A DNA stretch of 64,000 bases from an uncultured Clostridium sp. (GTDB taxonomy: Bacteria; Bacillota; Clostridia; TANB77; CAG-508), in assembly GCA_930989765.1 (NCBI GenBank), contig CAKNNA010000002.1, positions 26,000 to 89,999 of the forward strand. Direction: 5' to 3'. Both the position numbers and the translations under genes were made by a program. Below the pieces are notes generated by a model. It did no database searches. It saw only the letters and a program-made list of their open reading frames with translations, and was not told the origin of the DNA. Below, piece after piece: positions 6,902 through 56,152 of this stretch (the stretch's first letter is position 1; every line of letters begins with the position of its first letter).

Positions 6902-7573
6902 TTAAAGTACCTCTAACGCTTGAACACAAAGCCTTTGAGTTGGTTGATTTCTTACACAAGTTATAATTGTTATTCTATTATCTTCTGTTTTTTCCAACAT
7001 AGACCAATCTGTTTCTTCTATTTGTTTAATTGTTGTTATTGTATATTCTTTATTTCCAAGACAAGAAGAATATTTTATGATATCTCCTTCTTTGACATTT
7101 TTCAAATTAGCTAAAAATCTAGAAGTGTTATGTCCCGCTAAACAAACATTACCTTGCAAAATATTGCTATGTTCGAAAAGACCAATTCCTTGTGCTAATG
7201 ATTCCTGAGTTGTCCCTTCTATTACAATATCTTTAAAATTAATAGATGGTATTTCTAATGTTGCAATAGCATTAAGTGTTTTTGTACTATCTGATTCTGA
7301 TTCGACAGGAGTTCCTGCTATTTTTTGATAGTTTTCAGTTGTATATTCTGTAACAATATCTTGTCTATTGTCATTATTATATATGTTATAAATATTATTT
7401 ATATTGTCTTGTATATGCTTATGTTGTATGTATTTATATGCACAAAATATACCTGTAAACAATACAATTAGACATAATAGAATAATAAGTGAAATCTTTA
7501 TAATTTTTTTTGTCTTGTCTTTCAAAAAAATTTCCTCCTTTCTTTTAAATTTAAAATAAATCCTCCTTTCCAA
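6902..7573 (-). CDS. sortase
   Basis: TLEIPSINFKDIVIEG, CLAGHNT, TIITCVRN...QRLCVQA sortase His/Cys/Arg motifs. Confidence 0.85.
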   Translation of the reverse strand: MERRIYFKFKRKEEIFLKDKTKKIIKISLIILLCLIVLFTGIFCAYKYIQHKHIQDNINNIYNIYNNDNRQDIVTEYTTENYQKIAGTPVESESDSTKTLNAIATLEIPSINFKDIVIEGTTQESLAQGIGLFEHSNILQGNVCLAGHNTSRFLANLKNVKEGDIIKYSSCLGNKEYTITTIKQIEETDWSMLEKTEDNRITIITCVRNQPTQRLCVQALEVL

Positions 7574-37028: not shown

Positions 37029-40000
37029 ATGTATTTAAAAAGATTAGAAATGCAAGGATTTAAATCATTTGCAGATAAAACAGTATTAGAATTTAAAAGT
37101 GGAATTACAGGAGTAATTGGGCCTAATGGCTCTGGAAAAAGTAATATATCAGATTGTATTAGATGGATATTAGGTGAGCAAAGTATGAAATCCCTAAGGG
37201 GAGCAAAATCTCAAGATGTAATATTTGCAGGAACACAAAACAGAAAATCACTAGGTTTTGCAGAAGCATCACTTGTTTTTGACAACCAAGATGGAAAATT
37301 ACCAATAGAATACCAAGAAGTCACAGTAACAAGAAAACTTTACAGAAGCGGAGAAACAGGGTACTATATAAATAAAGTTCCATGTAGACTAAAAGATGTA
37401 CTAGAATTATTTATGGACACAGGAATTGGAAAAGATGGATATTCAATAATAGGCCAAGGAAAAATAGACGAAATTTTAAGCAACAAATCAGAAGATAGAC
37501 GCCATATATTTGAAGAAGCAGCAGGTATTGTAAAATATAGAATAAGAAAACAAGAATCTGAAAAGAAACTAGAACATACAAAGCTAAACTTACTTAGAAT
37601 AAATGATATTCTAACAGAAATAGAAACAAATTTAGAGCCATTAAAAATCAGTTCAGAAAAAGCAAAAACATATTTAAATTTAAGAGAAGAGTTAAAAAAT
37701 ATAGAAATAGGAGTATTTTTATACAATATAGATAAATACAAAGAGCAAATTGCAGAACTTACAAAAGATGAAGATATAATGCAATCACAATGTAATGATG
37801 AAGAAGGTAAACTTGAAAAAATAAAAATGCTAAAAGAAGAGCTAAAAAGCCAAATAGATGAAATTACAGCAAAAATAGAAGAAATTTCAGGTTTAGGGTT
37901 TGAAAGCAAAAAGGAAATAGAAGTACTAACATCAAATATAAATGTAGCAAAAACCAAAATAACAAATAACAAAGACAATATAGAAATGTTTAAAAAAGAG
38001 ATAGAAGTAAATACTGCAAAACTAAAAGAATTAGAAGAAGAAAAAAATCAAAAAGAAGAAAAGAAAACAAACTTAAAAGAAAATAGAAAAAGATTTGAAG
38101 AAGAGTTAAACCAAAAAGAAAAAGAGCTAGAAGAAATAACAAAAACACTGTCTGCAAAAGAACTAGAAATAGAAGAAAATAAAAAGAAAATAGAAAATAT
38201 GCAAGACAAAAAATATGAAATTCAATCAAATCTTAGCACAAAACAAGCAAACTTCCAAAATAATGAAAAAAGACAAAATCAAATAAAACAAGAAATAGAA
38301 ACAAACATAATAGAACAAGACAAAATAAGAATGCAAAAAGAAGAAATATCAAAAGAATTTTATGAAATAGAACTTTCAAGAAATAACAAAATAAAAGAAA
38401 AAGAAGAAATAGCAAATAAAAAAGAAGAAGCCGGAAAAAAACTAAAAGAATATGAAATATTAAAAAATAACCTAGAAAATGATTTAAGAATAAAAATATC
38501 AAGACAAAAATTTCTTATAGAAACAGAAAAAGAAAAAGAAGGATACATAAAAAGTGTAAAACAACTGCTAAAAGATTGCAAAACAACAAAAGAGCTAGGT
38601 GAAGGAATGTGCCGGAGTAATTGCAGAAATAATAGATGTAAAAGAAGAACTTCAAACAGCAATAGAAATAGCCCTAGGTGCAAGTATGCAAAACATAGTT
38701 ACAAAAACAGAAGAAGATGCAAAAAAATTAATAGAATACTTAAGGGTTAACAACTTAGGAAGAGCATCATTTCTACCTATATCATCAGTTAAAGGAAAAA
38801 AATTAGAAAAATTTAAAACACTAAAAAAAGGTATAATAGGAATAGCATTAGATTTAGTAAAATATGATAAAAAATACGAGCAAATAATGCAAAGCTTACT
38901 TGGAAGAACAGTAATAGTAGATGATATGAATACAGCAATAATGCTTGCAAAAGAAAATAACTATTCATTTAGAATAGTAACAAAAGAAGGAGACATAATA
39001 AACCAAGCAGGGGCAATTACAGGAGGCTCTATTAGCAAAAAAACAGTAAATATTTTAGGAAGAACAAAAGAAATAGAAAGACTTGGAAACGAAATAGAAG
39101 ATTTAAAAGCAAAAATAGAAAAAATAGAAAAAGACGAAGAAGAATATACAAATCAAGTAGAAGGCACACTAGAAATTGCAGAAAATATAGAAAGCAAATT
39201 ACAAGAAATAGAAATAGAATATGCAACTAAAAAACAAAAAATAATTTTAGTTGATGAAAATATTGAAAAAATAGAAAAAAGAATAAATATTTTAAAACAA
39301 GAACAAGAAGAAATAAAAAATGAACAAGAAAAAATAATAAATATGCAAAAAGAAATGCAAAATGAGCAAGAAGAAATAACAGCTAATCTAGAAATATTAT
39401 CAAAAAAAGTAGCAGAATATTCTGAATTAAACAAAGAAAGCCAAGAATATATAGATAATTTAAATTCTGATATAACAAACTTAAAAATATCTGTTACATC
39501 ATTTGATGAAAGCAAAAATTCAATAGAAGAAATACAAGAAAGAATAGAAAAAGAAATAGAGCAAAGCAAAAAAAATATTGAAAACAAAAATCAAGAAATA
39601 GATAAATCAACTAAAGAAAATATAATGCTAGAAAACGAAATTAATAAAACCTACGAAAAAATAGAAAACATTAAAGAAGAAGTATCAAAAAGCAGTTCTA
39701 AAATAGAAAATTTGAAACAAGAAAGACAAGAAAAAAATGAAAAAATATCAAAACAAGAAGAAGAAATAACAGAAAAATTTAATATAATAGAAGACTTAAA
39801 AGCAAAACTTGTAAAACTAGATGTAAGAAAAACAAAACTTCAAGAAGACATAAATGAAATTATAAATAAAATGTGGGAAGAATATGAACTTACTCCAAAT
39901 ACTAAAACAGAATATGAAAAACCAACAAATGTCCAAGAAGCAGTAAAAAAAGTAAATTATTTAAGAGAACAAATAAAAAACTTAGGCAGTGTAAATATAG

Positions 40001-40575
40001 ACTCAATCGAAGAATACAAAAACTTAAAAGATAGATATGATTTCATGAGTGAACAAAGATTAGATTTAGAAAGCACAATGAGTAAATTAAGAAAAATAAT
40101 CTCAGAAATGACACAAATAATGAAAGAACAATTTAAAGAAAAGTTTAAAATGATAAACAAAAACTTCAATGACAGCTTTAAAGAATTGTTTGGAGGAGGA
40201 AAAGCAGAATTAAAACTAGAAGACGAAGAAAATCTTTTAGAATGTGGAATAGAAATAACAGTAGAGCCACCAGGAAAAAAATTACAAAGTATGACTTTGC
40301 TTTCAGGTGGAGAAAAAGCACTAACTGCAATAGCACTATTATTTGCAATTCTAAGAATTAACCCATCACCATTTTGCGTATTAGACGAAATTGAAGCAGC
40401 ACTTGATGATGTTAATGTTTACAGATATGCAGAATACTTAAAAAAATTTGCCAAAGACACACAATTCCTAGTTATTACTCATAGAAAAGGAACTATGGAA
40501 GTTGCAAATACAGTTTATGGGGTAACTATGGAAGAAAGCGGTATTTCTAAGTTATTATCTATTAAACTAAACTAA
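37029..40575 (+). CDS. smc: chromosome segregation protein SMC with one +1 shift at CGG (38613-38615)
   Basis: MYLKRLEMQGFKSFADKT, IGPNGSGKSNI, C-terminal LLSGGEKALTAIALLFAI, FCVLDEIEAALDD; shift gives KELGEGMC-GVIAEIIDVKEELQTAIEIALGASMQNIV. Confidence 0.93.
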
Positions 40576-42263: not shown

Positions 42264-43145
42264 ATGAGGGGAGATAAAATGAATTTGAAACTAAATAATA
42301 ATTTAAAAATTTTGTTTATAACAATTTTATGTATGTGCATTTTATTAGGACTTACAACAGAAATTAAAGCTGCAACATCATTTACGACAAAACTTACAGC
42401 ATCAAAAAGTCAAGCAGTTGCAGGAGATGAAATAACAATAGGAATAACAATATCAGATATAAATGTAGGAAATGGAATACAAGCAATTCAAGGTAAATTA
42501 ACATATGATACAGAAAAATTAACATATAGCAGTATAACTGCAAGCAATGGTTGGGGATCACCTGTTTATAACCCAGAAAATGGAATGGTTGTTGTAGAAA
42601 GTTCAAACTATGTAACACAAGAACAAGAAATAATGAAAGTAACATTTAAAGTAAAAGAAGGCGTAGAAGCAGGCTCAGCAAAAATTCAATTCCAAGAAGT
42701 ACAAGCAAGTGATGGCGAAATCATGGCAGATGGATCTACATCAGTGACATCAATAGATATAAAATTAGCAAGTTCAGAGGAAGATGAAAACAATAACACA
42801 AATGATACAAACCAAGCAGGAAATAATGGCACAAACGATACAAATCAAACAGGAAACAATAACACAAACGATACAAACCAAGTAGGAAATAATAATACAA
42901 ATGATACAAATCAAGCAGGGAATAACAACATAAATAATACAAGCCAAACAGGAAAAAATAATTCAAACAACAATAGCTTAAGAAATAATTCATCAAACAA
43001 TGGAAGCTTAAACAAACAAACTACAGCAAATAATTCATTACCAAAAACAGGTATAAGCAATACTATTGCAATAATAGCAGTAATAGTTGCAATTATTGGA
43101 ATTATAAGTTACTTAAGATATAAAAAATATAGAGGAATAAAATAA
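42264..43145 (+). CDS. LPXTG-anchored single-cohesin protein
   Basis: cohesin-like AGDEITIGITISDINVGNGIQAIQGKLTYDTEKLTY; Asn-rich linker; LPKTG-TM-positively charged tail. Confidence 0.82.
   Translation: MRGDKMNLKLNNNLKILFITILCMCILLGLTTEIKAATSFTTKLTASKSQAVAGDEITIGITISDINVGNGIQAIQGKLTYDTEKLTYSSITASNGWGSPVYNPENGMVVVESSNYVTQEQEIMKVTFKVKEGVEAGSAKIQFQEVQASDGEIMADGSTSVTSIDIKLASSEEDENNNTNDTNQAGNNGTNDTNQTGNNNTNDTNQVGNNNTNDTNQAGNNNINNTSQTGKNNSNNNSLRNNSSNNGSLNKQTTANNSLPKTGISNTIAIIAVIVAIIGIISYLRYKKYRGIK
42790..42965 (+). repeat. tandem coding repeat NNNTNDTNQxG
   Basis: ~33-bp unit aacacaaatgatacaaaccaagcaggaaataat repeated about five times. Confidence 0.85.
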
Positions 43146-43154
43146 TATAATCTA

Positions 43155-43205
43155 AATAGTGCTAGTAAAGCAAAAGTGAAAAAAAGCTTTACTAGCACTA
43201 TTTAC
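43155..43205. terminator. strong hairpin terminator
   Basis: aaatagtgctagtaaagc..gctttactagcactattt. Confidence 0.8.
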
Positions 43206-43548
43206 ATTTTTCATAAAAAATATAGACTATTACTTTAAAGAGGAGTTAACTAAATTAATATATAAAAACATAGAAACAAAGTAAATAAAAAAGTTCTATG
43301 CTTTTTTTAGCAGTAAAAAACCTAGAATCCCGGTAAAATAACACAAAAATTGTGTATATGTAATCTAAATGTAACAAAAAAATAAAATTTGAAATAAAAG
43401 AAAAGAAACTGTAAATATCCGTAAAGTAGAAAATAAAATATAAGGTTTAAGTAGAAAAAAGAACAATTGAAAAAAATATATAAATATGAAATAATTTTGG
43501 CAAAATAAGTAAAATAAAAACCTTGTAAAATAAGAGGAGGAACTAGCA

Positions 43549-45351
43549 TTGAAAAAAAAATTGAAACAATTCGCAATAATAATTATTATGCTTTTTAGTA
43601 TAATTACAATTCATGAATCAAAAAGCCAAGCAGTAAGCAATTTAAACGACATTCAAAATAGTATACAATTGAATAATTCAGTTCCAATAACAAATGTAAA
43701 AAAACAGCTAAAGCAAATGCCATCAAAATTTATAAAACAAACAGGCAATGGCATTCAAAATAAATTTAATTTAAGAGAAAATATGGATATCGAAATAAAA
43801 GACCAAGGAAATACAAATAATTGTTGGATTGCATCAACAAATACATCACTAGAAACAGTTATAAATAAAACAAATGGGACAAATACTGTCTTACAAGAAA
43901 AAAATGTAGAAGAAGCAACAGATGATTTATATGTAAAGACAGATGGAATGGGAAATGCGCTAATGGTATTAGGTTACTATACATCAGGAAATGAGCCAAT
44001 AGACACAAATAACAATAAAGTAAATGTAGATGTAGACGAATATAGAGTATTTCCATCAATATACAAAAATAAAACAGAAGAAGGTAATTTAGAATATACA
44101 AATACAACAGCATTTTTTGGAAGAGAATATTATACAGAAAGCCAAGTGGAAGAAATAAGGAATGAAATAAAATATCACATATTAAACTATGGAGCAGTAA
44201 CTGCAATAACAAGTAGTTCATCAATGCAATATTACAATAATTCATCATACTATTGTGATAATTTACTATCAAAAATAGACCATCAAATAACTATAATAGG
44301 TTGGGATGATAATTACCCAATAGAAAATTTTAACAGTAACCATAGACCAAGTAAACCAGGTGCATATATAGTACAAAATTCATATGGAGATGAAATTTTT
44401 GATGGAGGAATAATGTACATATCATATGAAGATGCATTTATAGAAGGACAAGTAATAGGAGTTACAAAAGTTGAAAATAAAGATTATTTAAATTTATATC
44501 AACACGATGAATTAGGAGTAAATGGAAGTATGGGATTTACTCAAGACATATATGGAGCAAATGTATATAAAAGAGATACAAGCCAAACAGAATATTTAGA
44601 CAAAATAGGTATTGCAGTTTTAGCAGATACTAAATGTGAAATATATGTAAACCCTAGAAGCTCTGAGCTAGATAAAGATAAATTAAATAAAATAGGAGAA
44701 ATAACACTAGATGCAGGTTACAAAACATATAAACTTCAAAATCCAATAAAATTAACAGGAGAAGAATTTGCAATAGTCGTAAAATATGAAGCAAATGAAG
44801 ATAATATAGCATATGTAGGTATAGAATATAATGACAATGCAGCTTGGCAAAAAGCAGAAAATTCCAGCAAAGAAAGCTATCTATCAACAAATATGCAAAA
44901 CTATGAAGATATGACAACACTTGGGGAAATAGCAGAAAATGTAGAAACGGCAAACCTTTGTATAAAAGCATTCACAACTACAAAATCTAGAAATTATATA
45001 ATTACAGATGAATATGTAAAAAACATAAAACCAGAAACTACAATAGAAGAATTCAAAAATAACTTAGAAAAAACTATAGAAATAGAAAACGAAGAAGAAA
45101 CAAATTTAATAAAAACTGGAATGAAGGCAAAAATAGATGGAAAAGAATATACATTAATAGTTGTAGGAGATATAGATTGTGACGGAAAATTAACACTAAT
45201 TGATTTAGCAAAAATAAAACAACATTTAGTTGAAATAAACAAATTAGAAAATGAAAGATTGCAAGGAGCAGATATAAATTTAGACAATGAAATAAATCTT
45301 GTCGATTTAAGTAGAATAAAACAAGCCTTAGTAGGTTTAAAGGAAATATAA
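43549..45351 (+). CDS. C1A papain-like peptidase with C-terminal dockerin
   Basis: DQGNTNNCWIAS, DHQITIIGWDD, YIVQNSYGDEIFDGGIMYISYED; dockerin GDIDCDGKLTLIDLAKIKQHL...ADINLDNEINLVDLSRIKQAL. Confidence 0.88.
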   Translation: MKKKLKQFAIIIIMLFSIITIHESKSQAVSNLNDIQNSIQLNNSVPITNVKKQLKQMPSKFIKQTGNGIQNKFNLRENMDIEIKDQGNTNNCWIASTNTSLETVINKTNGTNTVLQEKNVEEATDDLYVKTDGMGNALMVLGYYTSGNEPIDTNNNKVNVDVDEYRVFPSIYKNKTEEGNLEYTNTTAFFGREYYTESQVEEIRNEIKYHILNYGAVTAITSSSSMQYYNNSSYYCDNLLSKIDHQITIIGWDDNYPIENFNSNHRPSKPGAYIVQNSYGDEIFDGGIMYISYEDAFIEGQVIGVTKVENKDYLNLYQHDELGVNGSMGFTQDIYGANVYKRDTSQTEYLDKIGIAVLADTKCEIYVNPRSSELDKDKLNKIGEITLDAGYKTYKLQNPIKLTGEEFAIVVKYEANEDNIAYVGIEYNDNAAWQKAENSSKESYLSTNMQNYEDMTTLGEIAENVETANLCIKAFTTTKSRNYIITDEYVKNIKPETTIEEFKNNLEKTIEIENEEETNLIKTGMKAKIDGKEYTLIVVGDIDCDGKLTLIDLAKIKQHLVEINKLENERLQGADINLDNEINLVDLSRIKQALVGLKEI

Positions 45352-45385
45352 ATTTACTAAATTGCAAGGTTAAAATAAGAGGTGG

Positions 45386-48300
45386 ATGGATATGAAAAAA
45401 ACAAAAATGTCAAAATCCTTAGAAAAAGTATGCACACAAAGACATTTGAAGAAGAAAAATAATTTAATATCAAAAACAAATAAAATCTCAAAAAGTAATA
45501 TACTAGCTGTTATTATAATAATGGTTTTGACTATAATAAAAATTTCACTACCATTAGAAAGCTTAGGAGCTGACGAAACAGCAGACCTTGAAATTTCAAG
45601 TAAAGAACAATTAGAAGCTTTTAGGGATTCTGTTAATAGTGGAGAAAGCTATGAAGGAAAAACAGTAAAATTAATGGCAGATATTAATTTAAATGGGACT
45701 TCATGGAATCCAATAGGAAACGAAACTTACTCATTTGATGGCACATTTGATGGACAAGGATATACTATAAGCGGAATGCAAATAACAAATCCAAATTATA
45801 CTTATGTTGGATTGTTTGGTAATAGTTATAAAATAAAAAATCTAAAAATAACTAATTCTAGTATAAGTACAAATTTTACTACACCAATTCAACAAAATGT
45901 AGGAATTATTAGTGGAAAAATAATTTCTATGGAAAATTGTTATACCGAAGGTTGCAAAATAACAATTCAAGATATAGAACTTCCAAATGAAACAGTAAAT
46001 ACAGTTGCATTTTATATTGGAGGACTTGCAGGAAACATGAGCAAAGGAGGCATATATGATAATGAATTATATGCTAAAAATTGTGTAAATAATACGGTAA
46101 TAGATGTTAATAATATACAAAATAGATTAGTAAATACATATATTGGAGGAATAATTGGATCAGGAACAGGAGAAATAACAAATTGTATAAATAATTCAGA
46201 ATTAAGTATTGATACATATGCAAATAGTATAGGTGGAATTATAGGAGTTTTTCAAAACGGAAGTATAAAATATTGTTATAACATTGGAAATATTACAGCA
46301 ATTGGACAAGGATCAAATTCTACATCAGGAACAGGAGGAATTTCAGGAGTAGTAAACAGTAATATGGATGTAACAATTTCAAACTGTTATAATAAAGGAA
46401 ATATAAGTTCAAAAGGTAAGGAAGATAATGTTAAAAATGGAGGGACAGGAGGAATAATCGGAAATAGTCGTGGAGAAAAAATAAAAGTAAGTAATAGTTT
46501 TAATACAGGCCTAATATCAGGAACAGGAAATCAATACACTGATCAAGAACAAGGGGGAATAACTACAACAGGTGAACTAGGAGTAGGTGGAATAATTGGA
46601 AACAATGGAGGAAAAGACGGAAACCCTATAGGCTCACAAATAGAAAACTGCTATAATATAGGAGAAATTTCAGGAGACGATAATAATAAAAATTTTAAAG
46701 GTAATATAGTAGGAAGCAATAAAAACAAAGGAACAATAAGAAATTGCTATTATAAACAAGGAAGCCAATATGGAGGATATGGAGAAAATCTAAGCACAGA
46801 AACAGTAGAAATTACAACAAAAACAGAAAGTGAAATGAAAACAGAAGAATTTGTCAATTTGCTTAATGCTGGAGGAAATGAATTCTATCTAGACACAAAT
46901 AACACTAACGACGGATACCCTATTTTTAAAGATATAACACCACCTAGCCTAATAGTAAAATACAGTGAAACAAACACAACAGACCAAGATGTAACAGTAA
47001 CAATAACATCAAACGAAGAATTGCAAGCTTTAGAGGGCTGGACACTATCTAGCAATAAATTAACACTTACAAAAACATATCAAGAAAACACAGAAGAAAC
47101 AATAGAAGTAAGTGATTTAGCTGGAAATAAAGTAAGTGTAAAAATAACAATAACAAATATTTTCAAAAATACAACCATAACATTTAAAGATGTAAATTTA
47201 TATAATGCAATTAAAACATCACTAGAAGGAAAGCTTGTATCAAAAGATGATAATAATTTGCAATTAACAATATCATATCAAAATTTAGAAGAAGTAAAAA
47301 AATTAGAACTAATACAAAAAGATATACAAAATATTGAAGGATTAGAGAATTTTAGCAATTTAGAATATTTAGATCTAAGCAATAACAATATAAACAACAT
47401 AGACAGTATATGCGGACTTCAAAATATAAAAACATTAAATTTAAACAATACAAAAGTAACAAATGAAGGAATAACAAAGATATCAAACTTAACAAACCTA
47501 GAACAATTAGCAATAGGTTATACTAAAATAACGAATCTTGAACAAATAACAAGCTTAAACAAATTGAAAACTCTAACAATAAAAGGAAACAATGTAGAGA
47601 ATATAGCACCAATATCAAGCTTAGAAAACTTAGAACAATTAAATATATCATACAACAATTTAAACAATATAAAACCACTTGCAAATTTAACAAAGTTAAA
47701 AGTATTATGGTGTGAAGGAAACAAGTTAGAAACAATGGATGAAATACTAAATATGGTAAATTTAGAAGAGCTATATTTAAGTGGAAATAAGCTAAAAGAA
47801 ATTGCAGATATAGAACAATTAACAAAATTAACTAGCTATGATTTTTCAAATCAATCAATAGAATTAGATGTAATTGGAACTCCATATGACGAAGTAAAAA
47901 TAGCATTACCAAATATTATAAAACAAGCTCAAGATGAAACAAGTAAACTTTACTCAGAAGAAAAAGAAAAGATACAAGGCATAAATTGCCAAGTAAATAT
48001 AGAAGAAAATACAGTAACATTAAAACCAATTGATGCAGCATATATTACAATACAAGTAATAATAAATGGAGGAAAATTAAATGGAAGTACAATAACACTT
48101 CCTGGAACAACAATAGATTATGGAGTAATAGATGAACAAACTGGTATTTTTACACCTATAAGCAATAACATAAAAATAAATGAAGATGTAATAGCAAAAG
48201 TAATAACAAATAGTACAGGTGTAATATTAGGAAAAGAAACAGAACACACATTTATAGAAAATGATGAATACCAATTTTCAATAACAAATGCACAAGGAGA

Positions 48301-50458
48301 AGAAGAATACTTACTTGCAACTGTAGACTTCATAGATAAAATAACACCAGAATATACAATAGAATATAGTACAAAAGAACCAACAAATGGAAATGTAAGA
48401 GTCACAATAAAAGTAAATGAACCATTAGAAGATTTTTATTATACAGAAGATGAAGAAGGTAACATCATAAGAGATTGGGAAATATCAGAAGATAAAATGA
48501 CAATATCAAAAGAATTTGACAATAATATAGAAACAACAATATTAATATCAGATGAAGCAAATAATGCAGTAGAAATACCAATAAATATAACAAACATAAA
48601 AAAAGAAAAACCAGAAGCTGCAAAATTAATAATAAAATACAATAATTCAGAAGGAGAAAACTATATAAATAGTAGTTGGACAAATAAAGATATATATATA
48701 TCAATTGATAACACCAGTATAAAAGAAGGTCTTACAGCAACATATACAATAAACAATAGTGAAGAATATAATCAAGAACAAACAATAACACAAGAAGGAA
48801 AATATACAGTAAAATTAATAACAAAAGATAGCGTGGGAAATAAGAGCGAAAATACATATCAAATCAATATTGATAAAACAAATCCAGAAATAGGAAGTAT
48901 AACATTTCAAGAAAATAGTATAAGTGGAGAAGAAATAGAAAATAATCAAATAACAAATCAAAATGTATATATATCTTTTAAAGAAGGACAAGACATCTTA
49001 AGTGGACATAAAGAAACAGTATATATAATAGATGGTAAAACACAATATGATGAATCATATATCTTAAGAGAAAATGGAAATCATAAAATAGAATTAATAA
49101 CAAAAGACCTAGCGGGAAATGAAAGTAAAGAAGAATATAATATAACAATAGATAAAGAACAACCAATATTAGAAATTAACTATATAAAAAATGTAGACAA
49201 TACTGTAACAGTAAATATATCTGCTAATGAAAAAATAAAAAACATTTCAGGATGGAATATGAATGAAGAACAAACAGCAATTTATAAAACATATATTGAA
49301 AATACGCAAGAGACAATTACAATAGAAGACCTAGCAGGAAATATTAAAGAATTAGACATACAAATAGAAAATATAGAGAATGTAGAAGGATTAATATCAC
49401 TAGTAGATTATAGTACAACAGAAAAAACAAACCAAAATGTTATAGTAAGTATCATAGCGAACAATGAATTAGAAGCAATAAATGGATGGAACCTAGACAG
49501 CACAAAAAGAAAAATATCAAAAGAATATGAAAAAAATATAACAGAAAATATTCAAATTCAAGATATATATGGAAATACAAATGATGTGGAAATATCTATA
49601 AATAATATAGACAAAGAAGCACCTATAGTAGATATTTCATATAGCAATAAGCAACCTACCAACAAAAATGTAACTGTAACAATAACAGTAAATGAAGAAG
49701 TAGAAGAAATAAGTGGTTGGAGACAAGAAGGAAATAAATTAACAAAAACATATGAAACAAACACCAATGAAATAATAAAAATAAAAGATAAAGTAGGCAA
49801 TATAAAAGAAGAAAAAATAACGATAGAAAATATTGATAAACAAGCACCTATATTGCAAATAGACTATAATACAACTGAAGAAACAACCAATCCAGTAATA
49901 GTAAAAATAACTGCAAATGAAAAGATAAGAAAAATAAATGGATGGGATATAAGTTCTGACGAAATGAAATTAACAAAAACATATAATGAAAATACAAAGG
50001 AAAATATCACAATACAAGATTTAGTTGGAAATACACAAGAAATCATTATAAATATCCAAAATATAATAGAAAAACAAGAAGAACTAAAAACAAATTATGA
50101 TATATCAGAACAAGGATATATAAAAAAAGTACTACCAAATACAACACTAGATGAATTCAAAAACAATTTTAACAAGCAAATAGAAATACAAGATACAGAT
50201 ATAATAAAAACTGGAATGATTTGCAAAATAGAAGGAAAAACATACACAATAATTGTAACAGGAGATATAAATGAAGATGGAAAAATAAATATAATGGATC
50301 TAGTAAAAATAAAAAGACATCTAGTAAATCTAAAAGATAGTATACTTTTAAATGAAAATTTAAAAGCAGCAGATATTAACTTAGATGGAGAAATAAATCT
50401 ACTAGATCTAGTAAAAATAAAAAGAATTATTACAGGAATAGAAAATATAGAAGAATAA
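45386..50458 (+). CDS. giant LRR/Ig-like/GLUG-repeat surface protein with C-terminal dockerin
   Basis: LRR block LEYLDLSNNNINNIDSI...; repeated ITxENIDKQAPIL Ig-like modules; GDINEDGKINIMDLVKIKRHL...ADINLDGEINLLDLVKIKRII. Confidence 0.85.
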   Translation: MDMKKTKMSKSLEKVCTQRHLKKKNNLISKTNKISKSNILAVIIIMVLTIIKISLPLESLGADETADLEISSKEQLEAFRDSVNSGESYEGKTVKLMADINLNGTSWNPIGNETYSFDGTFDGQGYTISGMQITNPNYTYVGLFGNSYKIKNLKITNSSISTNFTTPIQQNVGIISGKIISMENCYTEGCKITIQDIELPNETVNTVAFYIGGLAGNMSKGGIYDNELYAKNCVNNTVIDVNNIQNRLVNTYIGGIIGSGTGEITNCINNSELSIDTYANSIGGIIGVFQNGSIKYCYNIGNITAIGQGSNSTSGTGGISGVVNSNMDVTISNCYNKGNISSKGKEDNVKNGGTGGIIGNSRGEKIKVSNSFNTGLISGTGNQYTDQEQGGITTTGELGVGGIIGNNGGKDGNPIGSQIENCYNIGEISGDDNNKNFKGNIVGSNKNKGTIRNCYYKQGSQYGGYGENLSTETVEITTKTESEMKTEEFVNLLNAGGNEFYLDTNNTNDGYPIFKDITPPSLIVKYSETNTTDQDVTVTITSNEELQALEGWTLSSNKLTLTKTYQENTEETIEVSDLAGNKVSVKITITNIFKNTTITFKDVNLYNAIKTSLEGKLVSKDDNNLQLTISYQNLEEVKKLELIQKDIQNIEGLENFSNLEYLDLSNNNINNIDSICGLQNIKTLNLNNTKVTNEGITKISNLTNLEQLAIGYTKITNLEQITSLNKLKTLTIKGNNVENIAPISSLENLEQLNISYNNLNNIKPLANLTKLKVLWCEGNKLETMDEILNMVNLEELYLSGNKLKEIADIEQLTKLTSYDFSNQSIELDVIGTPYDEVKIALPNIIKQAQDETSKLYSEEKEKIQGINCQVNIEENTVTLKPIDAAYITIQVIINGGKLNGSTITLPGTTIDYGVIDEQTGIFTPISNNIKINEDVIAKVITNSTGVILGKETEHTFIENDEYQFSITNAQGEEEYLLATVDFIDKITPEYTIEYSTKEPTNGNVRVTIKVNEPLEDFYYTEDEEGNIIRDWEISEDKMTISKEFDNNIETTILISDEANNAVEIPINITNIKKEKPEAAKLIIKYNNSEGENYINSSWTNKDIYISIDNTSIKEGLTATYTINNSEEYNQEQTITQEGKYTVKLITKDSVGNKSENTYQINIDKTNPEIGSITFQENSISGEEIENNQITNQNVYISFKEGQDILSGHKETVYIIDGKTQYDESYILRENGNHKIELITKDLAGNESKEEYNITIDKEQPILEINYIKNVDNTVTVNISANEKIKNISGWNMNEEQTAIYKTYIENTQETITIEDLAGNIKELDIQIENIENVEGLISLVDYSTTEKTNQNVIVSIIANNELEAINGWNLDSTKRKISKEYEKNITENIQIQDIYGNTNDVEISINNIDKEAPIVDISYSNKQPTNKNVTVTITVNEEVEEISGWRQEGNKLTKTYETNTNEIIKIKDKVGNIKEEKITIENIDKQAPILQIDYNTTEETTNPVIVKITANEKIRKINGWDISSDEMKLTKTYNENTKENITIQDLVGNTQEIIINIQNIIEKQEELKTNYDISEQGYIKKVLPNTTLDEFKNNFNKQIEIQDTDIIKTGMICKIEGKTYTIIVTGDINEDGKINIMDLVKIKRHLVNLKDSILLNENLKAADINLDGEINLLDLVKIKRIITGIENIEE

Positions 50459-50512
50459 CTTTTATAAATCTATAAATTTGTAGACAAGTAGAATATAAAA
50501 AAGGAGAAAAAA

Positions 50513-53500
50513 ATGTTTATTAAAAAAATAAAAAATAATATTAATTTAATATTGATTGTATTTTTATTTCTGCTACTAATATATCCAAATCTTAGTAAAG
50601 CAACAGAATTTAGTTCACTACTAGATAATAAGATAAGAGCAAATAGAGCACTTGATATATATAATTCTTTAAAAGTATGGAATAATGGAAGTAGTATCAG
50701 TGCAAGTCATTCAGTAACTTTAATAAACGGATATGTAAAGACAGTTTTTAAAGCAACTCAAGATGGAGTAAGTTTAGGACAGAAAACTTCGACAACTGGA
50801 GGAGTAACTTTTGCTAAATCAAAATCACCAGGTAAACATACTATAACTGTAACAGCTAAAGCATTTCGAAAAAGTGGAAAAAGCACTGTTAGTTTACAAC
50901 TTAAAAGTAAATCATATACTTATACAGTAGCATCATCAAGTGGTGGAACAACAAAACCTACAACACCTCCAGAAGATACACCATATAATCCAACTCCAAT
51001 AATACCAGCAGATACAACAAGTCCAACAACAAATATAACAGCAGATGTAGGGCAAAATACTGAAACAAATAGCTCGCAAATCAATTACACAATAACATTT
51101 TCAGAAACAGTAACAGGCTTCGAACAACAAGATGTAACAATAAATAAAGGAAAAATAACAAATTTTTCAGGTCAAGGAACAACATATAACCTAACAGTAG
51201 AAACAGATACAGATACAAACTACACACAAACTGTACAAATAAACGCAAATGTATGTCAAGACGCAGCAGGAAATGGAAATACAGCAAGCAATAGCTACAG
51301 TATAAACATAGACAGAATAAAACCAGAAGTAAAAATTCTAGGAAACAGTGAAAAAGAAGCAGTAACAGAATACATAAAACAAATATACCAAAACACACTA
51401 TCAAGACAGCCACAAGAAAGCGATATACAATCACACTTAATGGTATATGTAGGAGCAAAAGACCTAACTAAATTATCAAAAGATATAATAGCAAGCCAAG
51501 AAGCAAAACAAAAAATAACAAATAATACAGATTATGCAAAAGCAATGTATAAATCTATATTAAACAGAGACCCAGACTCAACAGGGCTTGAAAACTGGAA
51601 ACAAAAAATTGACGAGCAAGGAATAGAAAAAACAATAGAAGAATTTTGTACATCACAAGAAGTACAAAATGTATTTAAACAAATAAAAGAAAAAGCAAAA
51701 ACTAATATAATTTTAAACAAAAATGATGAACTAACAATAGTATTTGGAGCAACAGACGAAAAATATAATAGTTCAAACATAACAGCAAATGACATAATGG
51801 TAAAAACAGGAGAAACGGTAATAACACCAAGCAAAAAAGAATTAACAAAAACCCAAAAAATAGACAAAGGAGAAGCATACATATTAACACTTGGAGGAAT
51901 AACAGGAAATGGAGAATTATCAATAACAATACCAACTGCAAAATTCCAAGATGTAGCAGGAAATGTAAATGATGAAAAAAGTAGTAGTGAACAAGAAGAA
52001 ACCAAACTAAATGTAATAGTAGACAATACAAAACCAGAAGTAAAGAAAGCAAGTCTAACAGGTGCAAATGGAAACGGATATGTAAAAAATGGAGATACAA
52101 TAAAACTAAACCTAGAATTTTCAGAGCCAATAGCAAGTGGACTTAAAGTAAAAATAGCAGGAAGAGATGCTACGGTTCAAGGTTCAGGCACAACATATAC
52201 AGCAAGCTTACAAATCCCATTAAAAGAAATAAGTCTTAATGAAGGAGAAATAAGTATAGAAATAAGTGGTTACACAGATGAATCAGGACTAGTAGGAGAT
52301 ACTATCACAAAAACAACAGACAGTAGTAAAATAATATATGACAGAACAGCACCAACAATAAATTCAATATCACCAAATGGAAACACTACATGGCAAAAAG
52401 TACAAAAAACAGTAGTATCTGCAAGTGATAATCTAACTTCAAATGACAAAATAATAGGAAAATATGTATTTGTACCAGAAGGAGAGTCAGTTGCAGACAT
52501 CGAAAATATATTCCAAAATAACAGCGAAATAGTAAAACAAGATGGAACAGGAAAATATATTTTATATATCCAAGTAGAAGACTTAGCAGGAAACACGCGC
52601 CTAGCAGTAACAAATCCATTTTATCTAGATAACCAAGTTACAGAAGCTGGAAAAATAAAAATAACAAAAGATTCTAAAACAGGAGAAGAACTAGTTCCAA
52701 CAGAAAAAACAGATACAGAAGGAAATAAATACTATGAAATAACTTATACAAATAAAAATTTATATATAACAAAAATAGATGGAAAAGATGATGAAAGTGG
52801 ACACAAAAGCACTATATATGAAGTAAATAAAATTTTAGCAGATGGAACAAAAATATCAGTAGGAACACCTAGTATAGAAGATACAATAATAGAAACAGCA
52901 GGAGATTATGAAATAATAGTTACAACAAAAGACAACTTAGATAATATTGCTAAAAGAAAATACAAAATTCATATAGACAGAAGCGGACCACAAATAACAA
53001 TTACTCCAAATGGAAATAGTGGATATGAAAAAACAAAAGTTGTAACTGTAAATGCTCAAGATATATCAGATGTAAATACTCAAATTTCATACTCTATAGT
53101 AAAAGAAGGAGAAGAGCCTACATATAATAAAACAGTAGTAAATGGGGGAACAATTAATATAAGTGGATTAACAGGAAAATATTATATATATGTAAAAGCA
53201 CAAGATAAATCAGGAAATGAAACAATAGTAAAAAGTAATCCATTCTATTTTGACAATAGTGTAACAACCATAGGAAGTCTAGAAATGAAAGAAAATGACA
53301 AAGACGGAAAAGAATATGTAGACAATACCTTTACAAAAGAAAATGTATACTTAAAAATAAAAGACCATGGAAAAGACGAAGAAACAGGAAGTGCAACATC
53401 AACATATAAAATAGTAAAACAAAATGAACAAGGTAATGATACAGTAATAGGAGAATACACAAACGAAAGTACAGTTTTACAAGAAGAAGGAATATATAAA

Positions 53501-56152
53501 ATAACACTAACAACTAAAGACTCATCTGGAAACCAAGGAAGTAAAACATACACAGTAAAAATAGACAAAACAGCACCTACAATAAAATTTGAAGGGCTAG
53601 AAGACTATGTAACAATAGGTGCAATAACAGTAAAAATAACAGATGAAAAAATATCAGCAAGTGGAGTAAATAGAGAAAGTCTTAAATATTACTGGACAAG
53701 AAGTACAAAAGAACCATCAAAAGAAGATTTTGAAGGAACAGATGATAAAGGATTTAGAGGTAAATTAAATGGAGAACAATCACTAGTAAAAGTACCAGAT
53801 AATATTTCAGGAATATGGTATTTATGGATACTTGCAGAAGATAATGTAGGAAATATATCAATAAAAAGCAATGTAAAAATAGAAGATGATGGAAATGTAT
53901 CATATGTAGACAATGAAGCACCAGTTGCAGGAACACTAGAAATGAAATTAGAAAATAATGAAGGGGAAGAATATATACAAGATACATTTACAAACAAAAA
54001 TGTATGGATAAATTTACAAAATGGATATGATGCAGATAGTGGAGTAAAACAAAATACATATATTATAAAAAAAGACGGAAACACTATTAAACAAGACCAA
54101 ACAGGAGAAAACACACTTACAGAAACAGGAATATATGACATCATAATAACAACAATAGACAACCAAGAAAATAGTAGTACAAGAGAATATAAAATAAAAA
54201 TAGACAAAAATGGTCCACAAATAGCATTTAATCCAAATGGAAATGAAGCTTTCTATAAGAAAAATGAAATACAAGTGCAAGTAACAGAGCCAGAAACAGA
54301 AAGTGGAGTAAATGAAGCTTCTATTGTAATTAAATGGATAGGATATAATCCAAAAACATATAAGTCAATAGATGAAGTTATTTCAAAAATAGAAGAAATA
54401 CAAGAAAATGTGCAAGAAGAAAAATTAAAAGAAGAACTAGCAAAAATAGAAATATACTATGAAGATGCAAAACAAGAAAACGGAAAAATACAAACACCAG
54501 AAAATGCAACAGGAATATATCACTTATATGTATATGCAGAAGACAATGTAGAAAATAAAACAATAAAAATCTCAGAAAGTTTTTCATTAGACAACAAAGA
54601 GCCAACAAAACCAGATGCATATGCAACAATAAAAGTACAAAAAGGAACAAAAGAAGAAGAAGTAAATTACTATGAAGAAACAACAAATAAAACAGTATAT
54701 GTATATGCTAAAAACAGTGAGTCTTTAAGCAAAGTAGATAAATATGAATATTCTATAACAACAGATGGAGGACAAACTTGGTCAGACTGGGAAGACTGTA
54801 CTGCAAAAGAAGATGATGAAATTTATGGTAAAATAGAAGTTCTAAATCATGGAAGGCAAATAGTAAAATTTAGAGGAATAAGTATACTAGAAGATGGAGA
54901 AAATATAGGAATAGAATCAGAAGAAATAGTAATAAACCAAGACATAGAAGGACCAAAAGTAGAATTTGCAAATACAGATGATGGAGAATCTGGAAACCAA
55001 GAATATCAAATTAAAGCAGAAGTAAGAGTAACAGTAATAGACGAATCTGGAATAGATGAAAATTCATTAAAATATACTTGGGTAAAATTTAATACAAAAG
55101 AAGAATATGAAGAATTTATAAATGGAAATAAAACAATAGAAGAACTAAAAGAAAAAATGATGGAAAATAGCAAAAGTTTTGCCAATGGAGAGCCAATAGT
55201 AATAAAAAATAGTGAAAAAGGAGTTTACAGTCTATTCATATATTCAAAAGATACCTTAGGAAATGAAACTGTAAATATAAGCAATCCATATTACATTTAT
55301 AAAGATAATCAAGGACCAAATATTACATTTAATAATACTCAAGATGGAGGAAATGGAAATAGTAAATGGGAAACCACAGCAAAAGTAAATGTAAATGTAA
55401 CAGACGAATCTGGAGTAGATGAGAATTCTCTAAAATATGAATGGGTAATATTTAATAGCAAAGAAGAATATGAAACCTTTATAAAAGAAAACACAGAAAT
55501 AGAAAAATTAAAAAACAAAATGCAAAACCAAACAATGTTTTTAAATGGACAAGAACTAATAATAAGTAGCGAAGAAAGAAAAATATATAGTTTATTTGTA
55601 TATGCAAAAGACACAGTAGGAAACGAAAATATAAGTATTAGTAACCCATACTATATAGGAAACTCAAAACAAGACGAAGCAAGCTATGAAGTTAAAGAAA
55701 ACTATATAATAAATGTAATTCCAGAAACAAAAGTAGAAGAATTTATAGAAAAAGTAAAAAATACTATAATAGGAGAAAATTATAATTTATATGATAATAA
55801 TAAAGAACAAATAAAATATGATTCAAAGGAAAATCAAAACAATAATAGTGACAAAACAAAAGACAATCAAAACGAGAATCTAAATTCCAAAACTAATTTT
55901 GTTGCAACAGGTGATATACTAAAAGTAGACGAAAAAGAATATACCGTAATAGTTTTAGGAGATTTAAATTCAGATGGATTATTAAATGTAATAGATTTAG
56001 CAAAACTAAAAAAATATATAACAGAAATAGAAAACTTAGATGAAAAATATAAACTTTCAGCAGATATTAACCAAGACGAAACAGTTAACATCATTGATTC
56101 AGTAAGAGCTAAGCAATATATTACAGGCTTAAGAATATTTGAAGAAAACTAG
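50513..56152 (+). CDS. giant Ig-like repeat protein with DUF4214-like domain and C-terminal dockerin
   Basis: IKQIYQNTLSRQPQESDIQSHL...YKSILNRDPDSTGLENWK; GDLNSDGLLNVIDLAKLKKYI...ADINQDETVNIIDSVRAKQYI. Confidence 0.85.
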   Translation: MFIKKIKNNINLILIVFLFLLLIYPNLSKATEFSSLLDNKIRANRALDIYNSLKVWNNGSSISASHSVTLINGYVKTVFKATQDGVSLGQKTSTTGGVTFAKSKSPGKHTITVTAKAFRKSGKSTVSLQLKSKSYTYTVASSSGGTTKPTTPPEDTPYNPTPIIPADTTSPTTNITADVGQNTETNSSQINYTITFSETVTGFEQQDVTINKGKITNFSGQGTTYNLTVETDTDTNYTQTVQINANVCQDAAGNGNTASNSYSINIDRIKPEVKILGNSEKEAVTEYIKQIYQNTLSRQPQESDIQSHLMVYVGAKDLTKLSKDIIASQEAKQKITNNTDYAKAMYKSILNRDPDSTGLENWKQKIDEQGIEKTIEEFCTSQEVQNVFKQIKEKAKTNIILNKNDELTIVFGATDEKYNSSNITANDIMVKTGETVITPSKKELTKTQKIDKGEAYILTLGGITGNGELSITIPTAKFQDVAGNVNDEKSSSEQEETKLNVIVDNTKPEVKKASLTGANGNGYVKNGDTIKLNLEFSEPIASGLKVKIAGRDATVQGSGTTYTASLQIPLKEISLNEGEISIEISGYTDESGLVGDTITKTTDSSKIIYDRTAPTINSISPNGNTTWQKVQKTVVSASDNLTSNDKIIGKYVFVPEGESVADIENIFQNNSEIVKQDGTGKYILYIQVEDLAGNTRLAVTNPFYLDNQVTEAGKIKITKDSKTGEELVPTEKTDTEGNKYYEITYTNKNLYITKIDGKDDESGHKSTIYEVNKILADGTKISVGTPSIEDTIIETAGDYEIIVTTKDNLDNIAKRKYKIHIDRSGPQITITPNGNSGYEKTKVVTVNAQDISDVNTQISYSIVKEGEEPTYNKTVVNGGTINISGLTGKYYIYVKAQDKSGNETIVKSNPFYFDNSVTTIGSLEMKENDKDGKEYVDNTFTKENVYLKIKDHGKDEETGSATSTYKIVKQNEQGNDTVIGEYTNESTVLQEEGIYKITLTTKDSSGNQGSKTYTVKIDKTAPTIKFEGLEDYVTIGAITVKITDEKISASGVNRESLKYYWTRSTKEPSKEDFEGTDDKGFRGKLNGEQSLVKVPDNISGIWYLWILAEDNVGNISIKSNVKIEDDGNVSYVDNEAPVAGTLEMKLENNEGEEYIQDTFTNKNVWINLQNGYDADSGVKQNTYIIKKDGNTIKQDQTGENTLTETGIYDIIITTIDNQENSSTREYKIKIDKNGPQIAFNPNGNEAFYKKNEIQVQVTEPETESGVNEASIVIKWIGYNPKTYKSIDEVISKIEEIQENVQEEKLKEELAKIEIYYEDAKQENGKIQTPENATGIYHLYVYAEDNVENKTIKISESFSLDNKEPTKPDAYATIKVQKGTKEEEVNYYEETTNKTVYVYAKNSESLSKVDKYEYSITTDGGQTWSDWEDCTAKEDDEIYGKIEVLNHGRQIVKFRGISILEDGENIGIESEEIVINQDIEGPKVEFANTDDGESGNQEYQIKAEVRVTVIDESGIDENSLKYTWVKFNTKEEYEEFINGNKTIEELKEKMMENSKSFANGEPIVIKNSEKGVYSLFIYSKDTLGNETVNISNPYYIYKDNQGPNITFNNTQDGGNGNSKWETTAKVNVNVTDESGVDENSLKYEWVIFNSKEEYETFIKENTEIEKLKNKMQNQTMFLNGQELIISSEERKIYSLFVYAKDTVGNENISISNPYYIGNSKQDEASYEVKENYIINVIPETKVEEFIEKVKNTIIGENYNLYDNNKEQIKYDSKENQNNNSDKTKDNQNENLNSKTNFVATGDILKVDEKEYTVIVLGDLNSDGLLNVIDLAKLKKYITEIENLDEKYKLSADINQDETVNIIDSVRAKQYITGLRIFEEN

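Follow-up and report, generated by a model that had tools for sequence, protein, structure and literature searches.

A single-cohesin wall protein and dockerin-bearing neighbours as a probable two-part surface anchor in an uncultured Clostridium

To our knowledge, cohesin-dockerin pairs have been studied almost only as parts of cellulosomes. A dockerin is made of two F-hand repeats, and where an adaptor protein carries both a cohesin and a dockerin, the specificity of the one is usually not that of the other. In C. difficile, the protease Cwp84, by which the S-layer precursor SlpA is cleaved, is attached to the wall via CWB2 (PF04122) repeats. Gln, Cys, and His are the residues of its active site (PMC4089489). 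In R. flavefaciens, ScaE is an LPXTG-anchored protein with a single cohesin, which binds the X-dockerins of ScaB, of CttA, and of a cysteine peptidase (PMC5301203). A part for some dockerins in structuring the cell surface has also been suggested (PMC2930009). How, then, does a cohesin locus from an uncultured Clostridium compare with these systems?

The stretch analysed here (the window) consists of 64,000 nucleotides of a metagenome-assembled genome, which comprises 87 contigs with an estimated contamination of 5.96%. Its relatives are also metagenome-assembled genomes of uncultured Clostridia, several of them from gut samples. The four ORFs that an earlier note had placed here are all found at those positions, and, as it said, the cohesin gene is followed by those of three secreted proteins that end in dockerins. 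The features are as follows.

6902..7573, minus strand: sortase gene, candidate anchoring enzyme for the cohesin protein (C2:32913-33257, E 3.4e-21)
42264..43145, plus strand: cohesin-LPXTG protein, 293 aa; signal peptide, one cohesin, Asn/Thr-rich linker, sorting signal
42390..42758, plus strand: cohesin module, predicted all-beta (Pfam E 1.9e-12; pLDDT 96; nearest structure 2vo8)
43035..43145, plus strand: LPKTG sorting signal, hydrophobic helix, basic tail (TIGR01167, aa 258-288)
43149..43208, plus strand: 23-nt inverted repeat with a loop of 14, then T-rich sequence; probable terminator of the cohesin gene
43549..45351, plus strand: secreted papain-like (C1A) protease, 600 aa; TTG start preceded by AGGAGG
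43759..44430, plus strand: Peptidase_C1 domain of the protease (Pfam 2e-10; Cwp84 4d59/4ci7 E 5e-16)
44494..44976, plus strand: Cwp84-type lectin-like domain of the protease (PF18560, Lectin_like; Pfam E 2.1e-25)
44989..45348, plus strand: X module and dockerin of the protease (Dockerin_1 E 9e-9; predicted pLDDT 93.6; 2ccl_B match at 0.8 A)
45386..50458, plus strand: secreted LRR/Ig protein, 1690 aa; Gly-rich repeats, internalin-like LRRs, Ig-like repeats, X-dockerin
about 47294-47815, plus strand: internalin-like LRRs of the 1690-aa protein (LRR_4 E 2.6e-19)
50093..50455, plus strand: X module and dockerin of the LRR/Ig protein (Dockerin_1 E 1.1e-10)
50513..56152, plus strand: secreted Ig/DUF4214 protein, 1879 aa; Big_12, DUF4214, long Ig-like region, X-dockerin
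51011-51307, plus strand: Big_12 of the 1879-aa protein (Pfam E 2.5e-13)
51482-51676, plus strand: DUF4214 of the 1879-aa protein (Pfam E 1.4e-12)
55685..56149, plus strand: X module (with an Asn-rich insertion inside) and dockerin of the Ig/DUF4214 protein (Dockerin_1 E 2.2e-9)

The ATG at 42279, which has GGGGAG before it, is a likelier start of the cohesin ORF than 42264. Since the 23-nt inverted repeat lies between the cohesin gene and the three-gene run that begins with the protease, these are probably two transcription units. No Rfam element was found close to the locus, and a promoter scan there gave a result no better than chance. Elsewhere in the window, the SMC gene (37029-40575) is divided by a frameshift near 38610 into two overlapping ORFs; because SMC is usually essential, this split is probably an assembly error.

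We consider it likely that the cohesin protein and its X-dockerin clients make up a two-part, interchangeable surface anchor. A sortase, of which the genome encodes nine, would fix the LPXTG cohesin protein to peptidoglycan so that one cohesin socket is displayed, and the three neighbouring secreted proteins would bring matching X-dockerin plugs, as probably would a beta-helix-like protein encoded elsewhere. Calcium-dependent docking would then keep the clients at the surface, one per socket. There, the protease would most likely trim proteins of the cell's own surface, or else host and dietary proteins close by, and the LRR/Ig clients would most likely serve as adhesins or spacers.

The first component was described before as an LPXTG-anchored protein with a single cohesin, and this description holds at the level of sequence: the cohesin profile (PF00963) scores 48 bits against a curated cut-off of 24.1, and the LPXTG signal (TIGR01167) 20.6 bits against an NCBIfam cut-off of 15.9. 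Both features that liken it to ScaE, namely the single cohesin and the LPXTG sorting signal, are therefore present. Its AlphaFold model (pLDDT 96.1) is a beta-sandwich with the cohesin fold; the alignments used for modelling held window sequences and relatives' sequences only, and each chain was folded singly. The nearest known structure is 2vo8, a non-cellulosomal cohesin of C. perfringens, with which 130 residues align at Z 17.7 and rmsd 1.9. Type I cellulosomal cohesins follow at Z about 15, and ScaE 2zf9, taken as the type III comparison, lies under both at Z 10.9.

As to the plugs, the earlier note had read a duplicated dockerin at the end of each secreted protein. Each has one dockerin; as two F-hand repeats make up a single dockerin, the duplication was a misreading. 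Two calcium-loop F-hand repeats are present in each of them, and the PF00404 scores are 35.9 bits for the protease, 42 for the LRR/Ig protein, and 37.8 for the Ig/DUF4214 protein, against a cut-off of 22.9. In the model of the protease X-dockerin (pLDDT 93.6), the dockerin superimposes on that of C. thermocellum, 2ccl_B, with Z 12.2 and rmsd 0.8 over 62 aligned residues. The module shared by the three proteins before the dockerin proved to be real, and 15 further sequences outside the window carry it. Apart from the dockerin, no Pfam or NCBIfam family matches this X module, and the structure-search matches of the X-dockerin model land on the dockerin part.

The recognition residues distinguish the dockerins within the genome. 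Those of the window form a cluster with a dockerin encoded far away, that of the beta-helix-like protein (C1:49305); all four are hydrophobic at positions 10/11 and have Lys at 17, while the codes elsewhere are SV/QR at an autolysin locus and IK/LQ at a locus on contig 1 (C1). The beta-helix-like protein (L014:1622-3988, C1:47121-49487), which has a weak tail-spike match besides its window-type dockerin, is encoded in a surface polysaccharide cluster with UDP-galactopyranose mutase and a sugar transferase, and SLH-domain proteins lie directly upstream. The same is seen beyond this genome, where several dockerins that are not linked to a cohesin group with the cohesin-linked type of their own genome or of close congeners. 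A further dockerin type, ASDYVLIKNYIMG, is found in proteins of about 500-590 aa (L100, L102, L105, L112, L115, L118, L124), none of which was found adjoining a cohesin.

The protease is the best-defined client. Its match to Cwp84 of C. difficile (4d59, E 5e-16) extends over protease and lectin-like domain alike, so that a C1A protease with Cys/His/Gln and the lectin-like domain of the Cwp84 type are both present, and Gln86, Cys92, His245, and Asn277 are invariant among eight aligned homologues. At the place of the CWB2 repeats of Cwp84 stands the X-dockerin, and PF04122 has no match anywhere in the window genome. An S-layer substrate was also considered: SLH proteins are present in this genome, but no link between them and the protease emerged. 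In congeners, the same pair of protease and lectin-like domain ends in LPXTG (L063, L065, L067, L068, L071), and one of these (L068, genome G254) is from a genome in which neither cohesin nor dockerin was detected. To judge from such comparisons, the dockerin appears to behave as one of several exchangeable anchors for the protease module. The nearest relative of the window protease (L127 / L194; genome G258, C70), with 56% identity in the best segment, is encoded by a gene broken by several stops, next to an intact cohesin-LPXTG gene.

Do the cohesin and the dockerins belong together? We compared 80 loci with a homologous protease. A cohesin gene lies within 6 kb in 12 of the 14 loci whose C1 protease bears a dockerin, compared with 2 of the 66 without it (Fisher 1.3e-10), the latter including distant taxa that may be wholly cohesin-free; in both of these two exceptions the protease gene is broken or truncated. 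In most relatives the order is the reverse of that in the window, where the cohesin gene lies upstream: it follows the protease gene at a distance of about 15-120 nt. Across the 12 protease loci, divergence of the cohesin is correlated with that of the dockerin (Mantel p 0.0002). After removal of protease divergence the correlation is weaker (r 0.33, p 0.057), so that shared ancestry explains part of it. Among 59 congeners, 50 have both modules, three have neither, and six have one only (p 0.0096). Four of these genomes contain dockerins with no detected cohesin, so that some dockerins may serve another purpose. It is from such congeners, and from the recurrence of the ASDYVLIKNYIMG-type class away from cohesins, that one could argue that the window dockerins are not partners of the window cohesin at all, being instead calcium-stabilised C-terminal caps, dimerisation modules, or ligands of another cohesin. 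We regard this as improbable, as the protease with its dockerin is tightly linked to the cohesin and the window code differs from that of the other dockerins in the genome.

The window locus is not the only one with a cohesin in this organism. The earlier note spoke of a miniature system, which was too modest: the genome has four cohesins at three loci and eight dockerins, three of the cohesins and five of the dockerins lying beyond the window, and in the family 201 of 243 genomes encode cohesins. Contig 16 has a locus made up of a cohesin gene, a sortase, a dockerin-bearing autolysin, and a second cohesin protein, which recurs in most genomes inspected, the dockerin of its core reading SV..QR in every such locus read. 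The core cohesin gene of this locus (L016:6106-7198, G000) has its cohesin in a first ORF and its LPXTG tail in an overlapping second; because congeners have one ORF, the split is probably a frameshift or an assembly error. The locus on contig 1 has a cohesin-Big_2 protein flanked by two dockerin proteins, of which one carries transglutaminase and BspA-type LRRs.

Relatives display more elaborate arrangements. ORFs of about 1250 aa such as L103:3025-6804 join transglutaminase, Ig-like, cohesin, and dockerin in one chain and recur next to a cohesin-LPXTG gene, so that head-to-tail polymerisation is conceivable. In L131 and L186, five genes encode in order a membrane-anchored cohesin, a large protease-dockerin, a cohesin-dockerin adaptor, a second protease-dockerin, and a cohesin-LPXTG protein, which resembles a two-tier proteolytic scaffold. 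Six dockerin ORFs in L122 (genome G269) and four in L119 (genome G170) stand in series, several with BspA-type LRRs, with a cohesin-LPXTG gene at the end.

These arrangements bear on whether the window proteins form a surface complex, as the earlier note supposed. The surface-bound part of that proposal stands, but the complex does not: the four cohesins are on four separate ORFs, none is repeated within an ORF, and no polypeptide with several cohesins or with a cohesin plus a dockerin was found in the window genome. This argues for one client per anchor and leaves a joint complex unsupported here. A true multi-protein complex, in which the protease and adhesins on one scaffold couple adhesion and proteolysis, is in our judgement unlikely, if slightly less so than the absence of partnership discussed above. 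It would fit the three clients of one code adjoining one cohesin gene, the longer series in relatives, such as L122 with its six dockerin ORFs and a cohesin, and the relatives' proteins with both modules (L103, L131, L186), which could link into chains, whereas nothing found in the window genome is able to hold two clients.

Is the two-part anchor then derived from a cellulosome? The idea that it is a remnant or side branch of one draws on the identity of the module families and on LPXTG-anchored single cohesins being included in Ruminococcus cellulosomes (PMC2930009, PMC11557425). We think it very improbable. Outside their dockerins, all eight dockerin proteins encoded in the genome are without a match to a plant-wall hydrolase (cellulase or hemicellulase) catalytic domain, and the best structural match of the cohesin is to those of C. 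perfringens. The polyvalent scaffoldin by which a cellulosome is recognised was not found in the window genome. GH48 had no match in the 59 congeners, a result that leaves its absence unproved because no control genome held GH48. The absence of any glycoside hydrolase, as previously claimed, is true of the locus and not of the genome, in which two dockerin proteins are SagB-type glucosaminidases. Domains, sorting signal, predicted folds, and loci all support a surface-bound, non-cellulosomal system based on cohesin and dockerin, with the protease included.

It is tempting to extend this to the entire family, a group of uncultured gut Clostridia with small genomes, although only tentatively, with chances a little short of even. 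There, cohesin and dockerin may be a general means of surface display without a cellulosome, in which several mutually orthogonal pairs per genome serve proteases, autolysins, and adhesins, and the recurrent protease-cohesin pair is a dedicated unit. Clustering of the dockerins by code fits several orthogonal pairs per genome, common descent explaining part of it. If so, gut Clostridia would have a common means to mount such proteins on the wall, new orthogonal binding pairs would become available for protein engineering, and one protease module would be found on three anchors: CWB2, LPXTG, and dockerin. The suggestion of a cell-surface role for dockerins (PMC2930009) would also become directly testable. 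A literature search for this lineage together with dockerins, under a lineage name that was a guess, found nothing, and the searched passages of the survey in PMC11557425 make no mention of protease-cohesin gene pairs or of this lineage of gut Clostridia with small genomes.

Among the systems described so far, ScaE of R. flavefaciens is alike in its single cohesin, its LPXTG wall anchor, and its X-dockerin clients, which include a cysteine peptidase (group-4 dockerins), if the window cohesin binds its neighbours as we infer; LRR and transglutaminase dockerin proteins also occur in R. flavefaciens (PMC5301203, PMC2930009). Unlike that organism, the window genome has no cellulosome; the window X module is a short one that fits no curated family, and ScaE resembles the cohesin model less than type I cohesins or those of C. 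perfringens do. Cwp84 of C. difficile shares the order of C1A protease and lectin-like domain and a position at the surface, which for the window protease is predicted, but it is held by CWB2 repeats where the window protease has its X-dockerin. The cohesins of C. perfringens GH33 and GH84 enzymes (2vo8, 2jh2, 2w1n) are the closest solved structures and are likewise in non-cellulosomal use; they are, however, part of the enzyme itself, whereas the window cohesin has a protein of its own, which bears a wall-sorting signal. The "scaffoldin-containing", presumably non-cellulolytic microbes of PMC11557425 have cohesins and dockerins without the plant-wall enzyme set and cell-associated single-cohesin proteins, as here. 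The window system is probably a cellulosome-free form of a known type of anchor, broader and more regular than the earlier note had seen.
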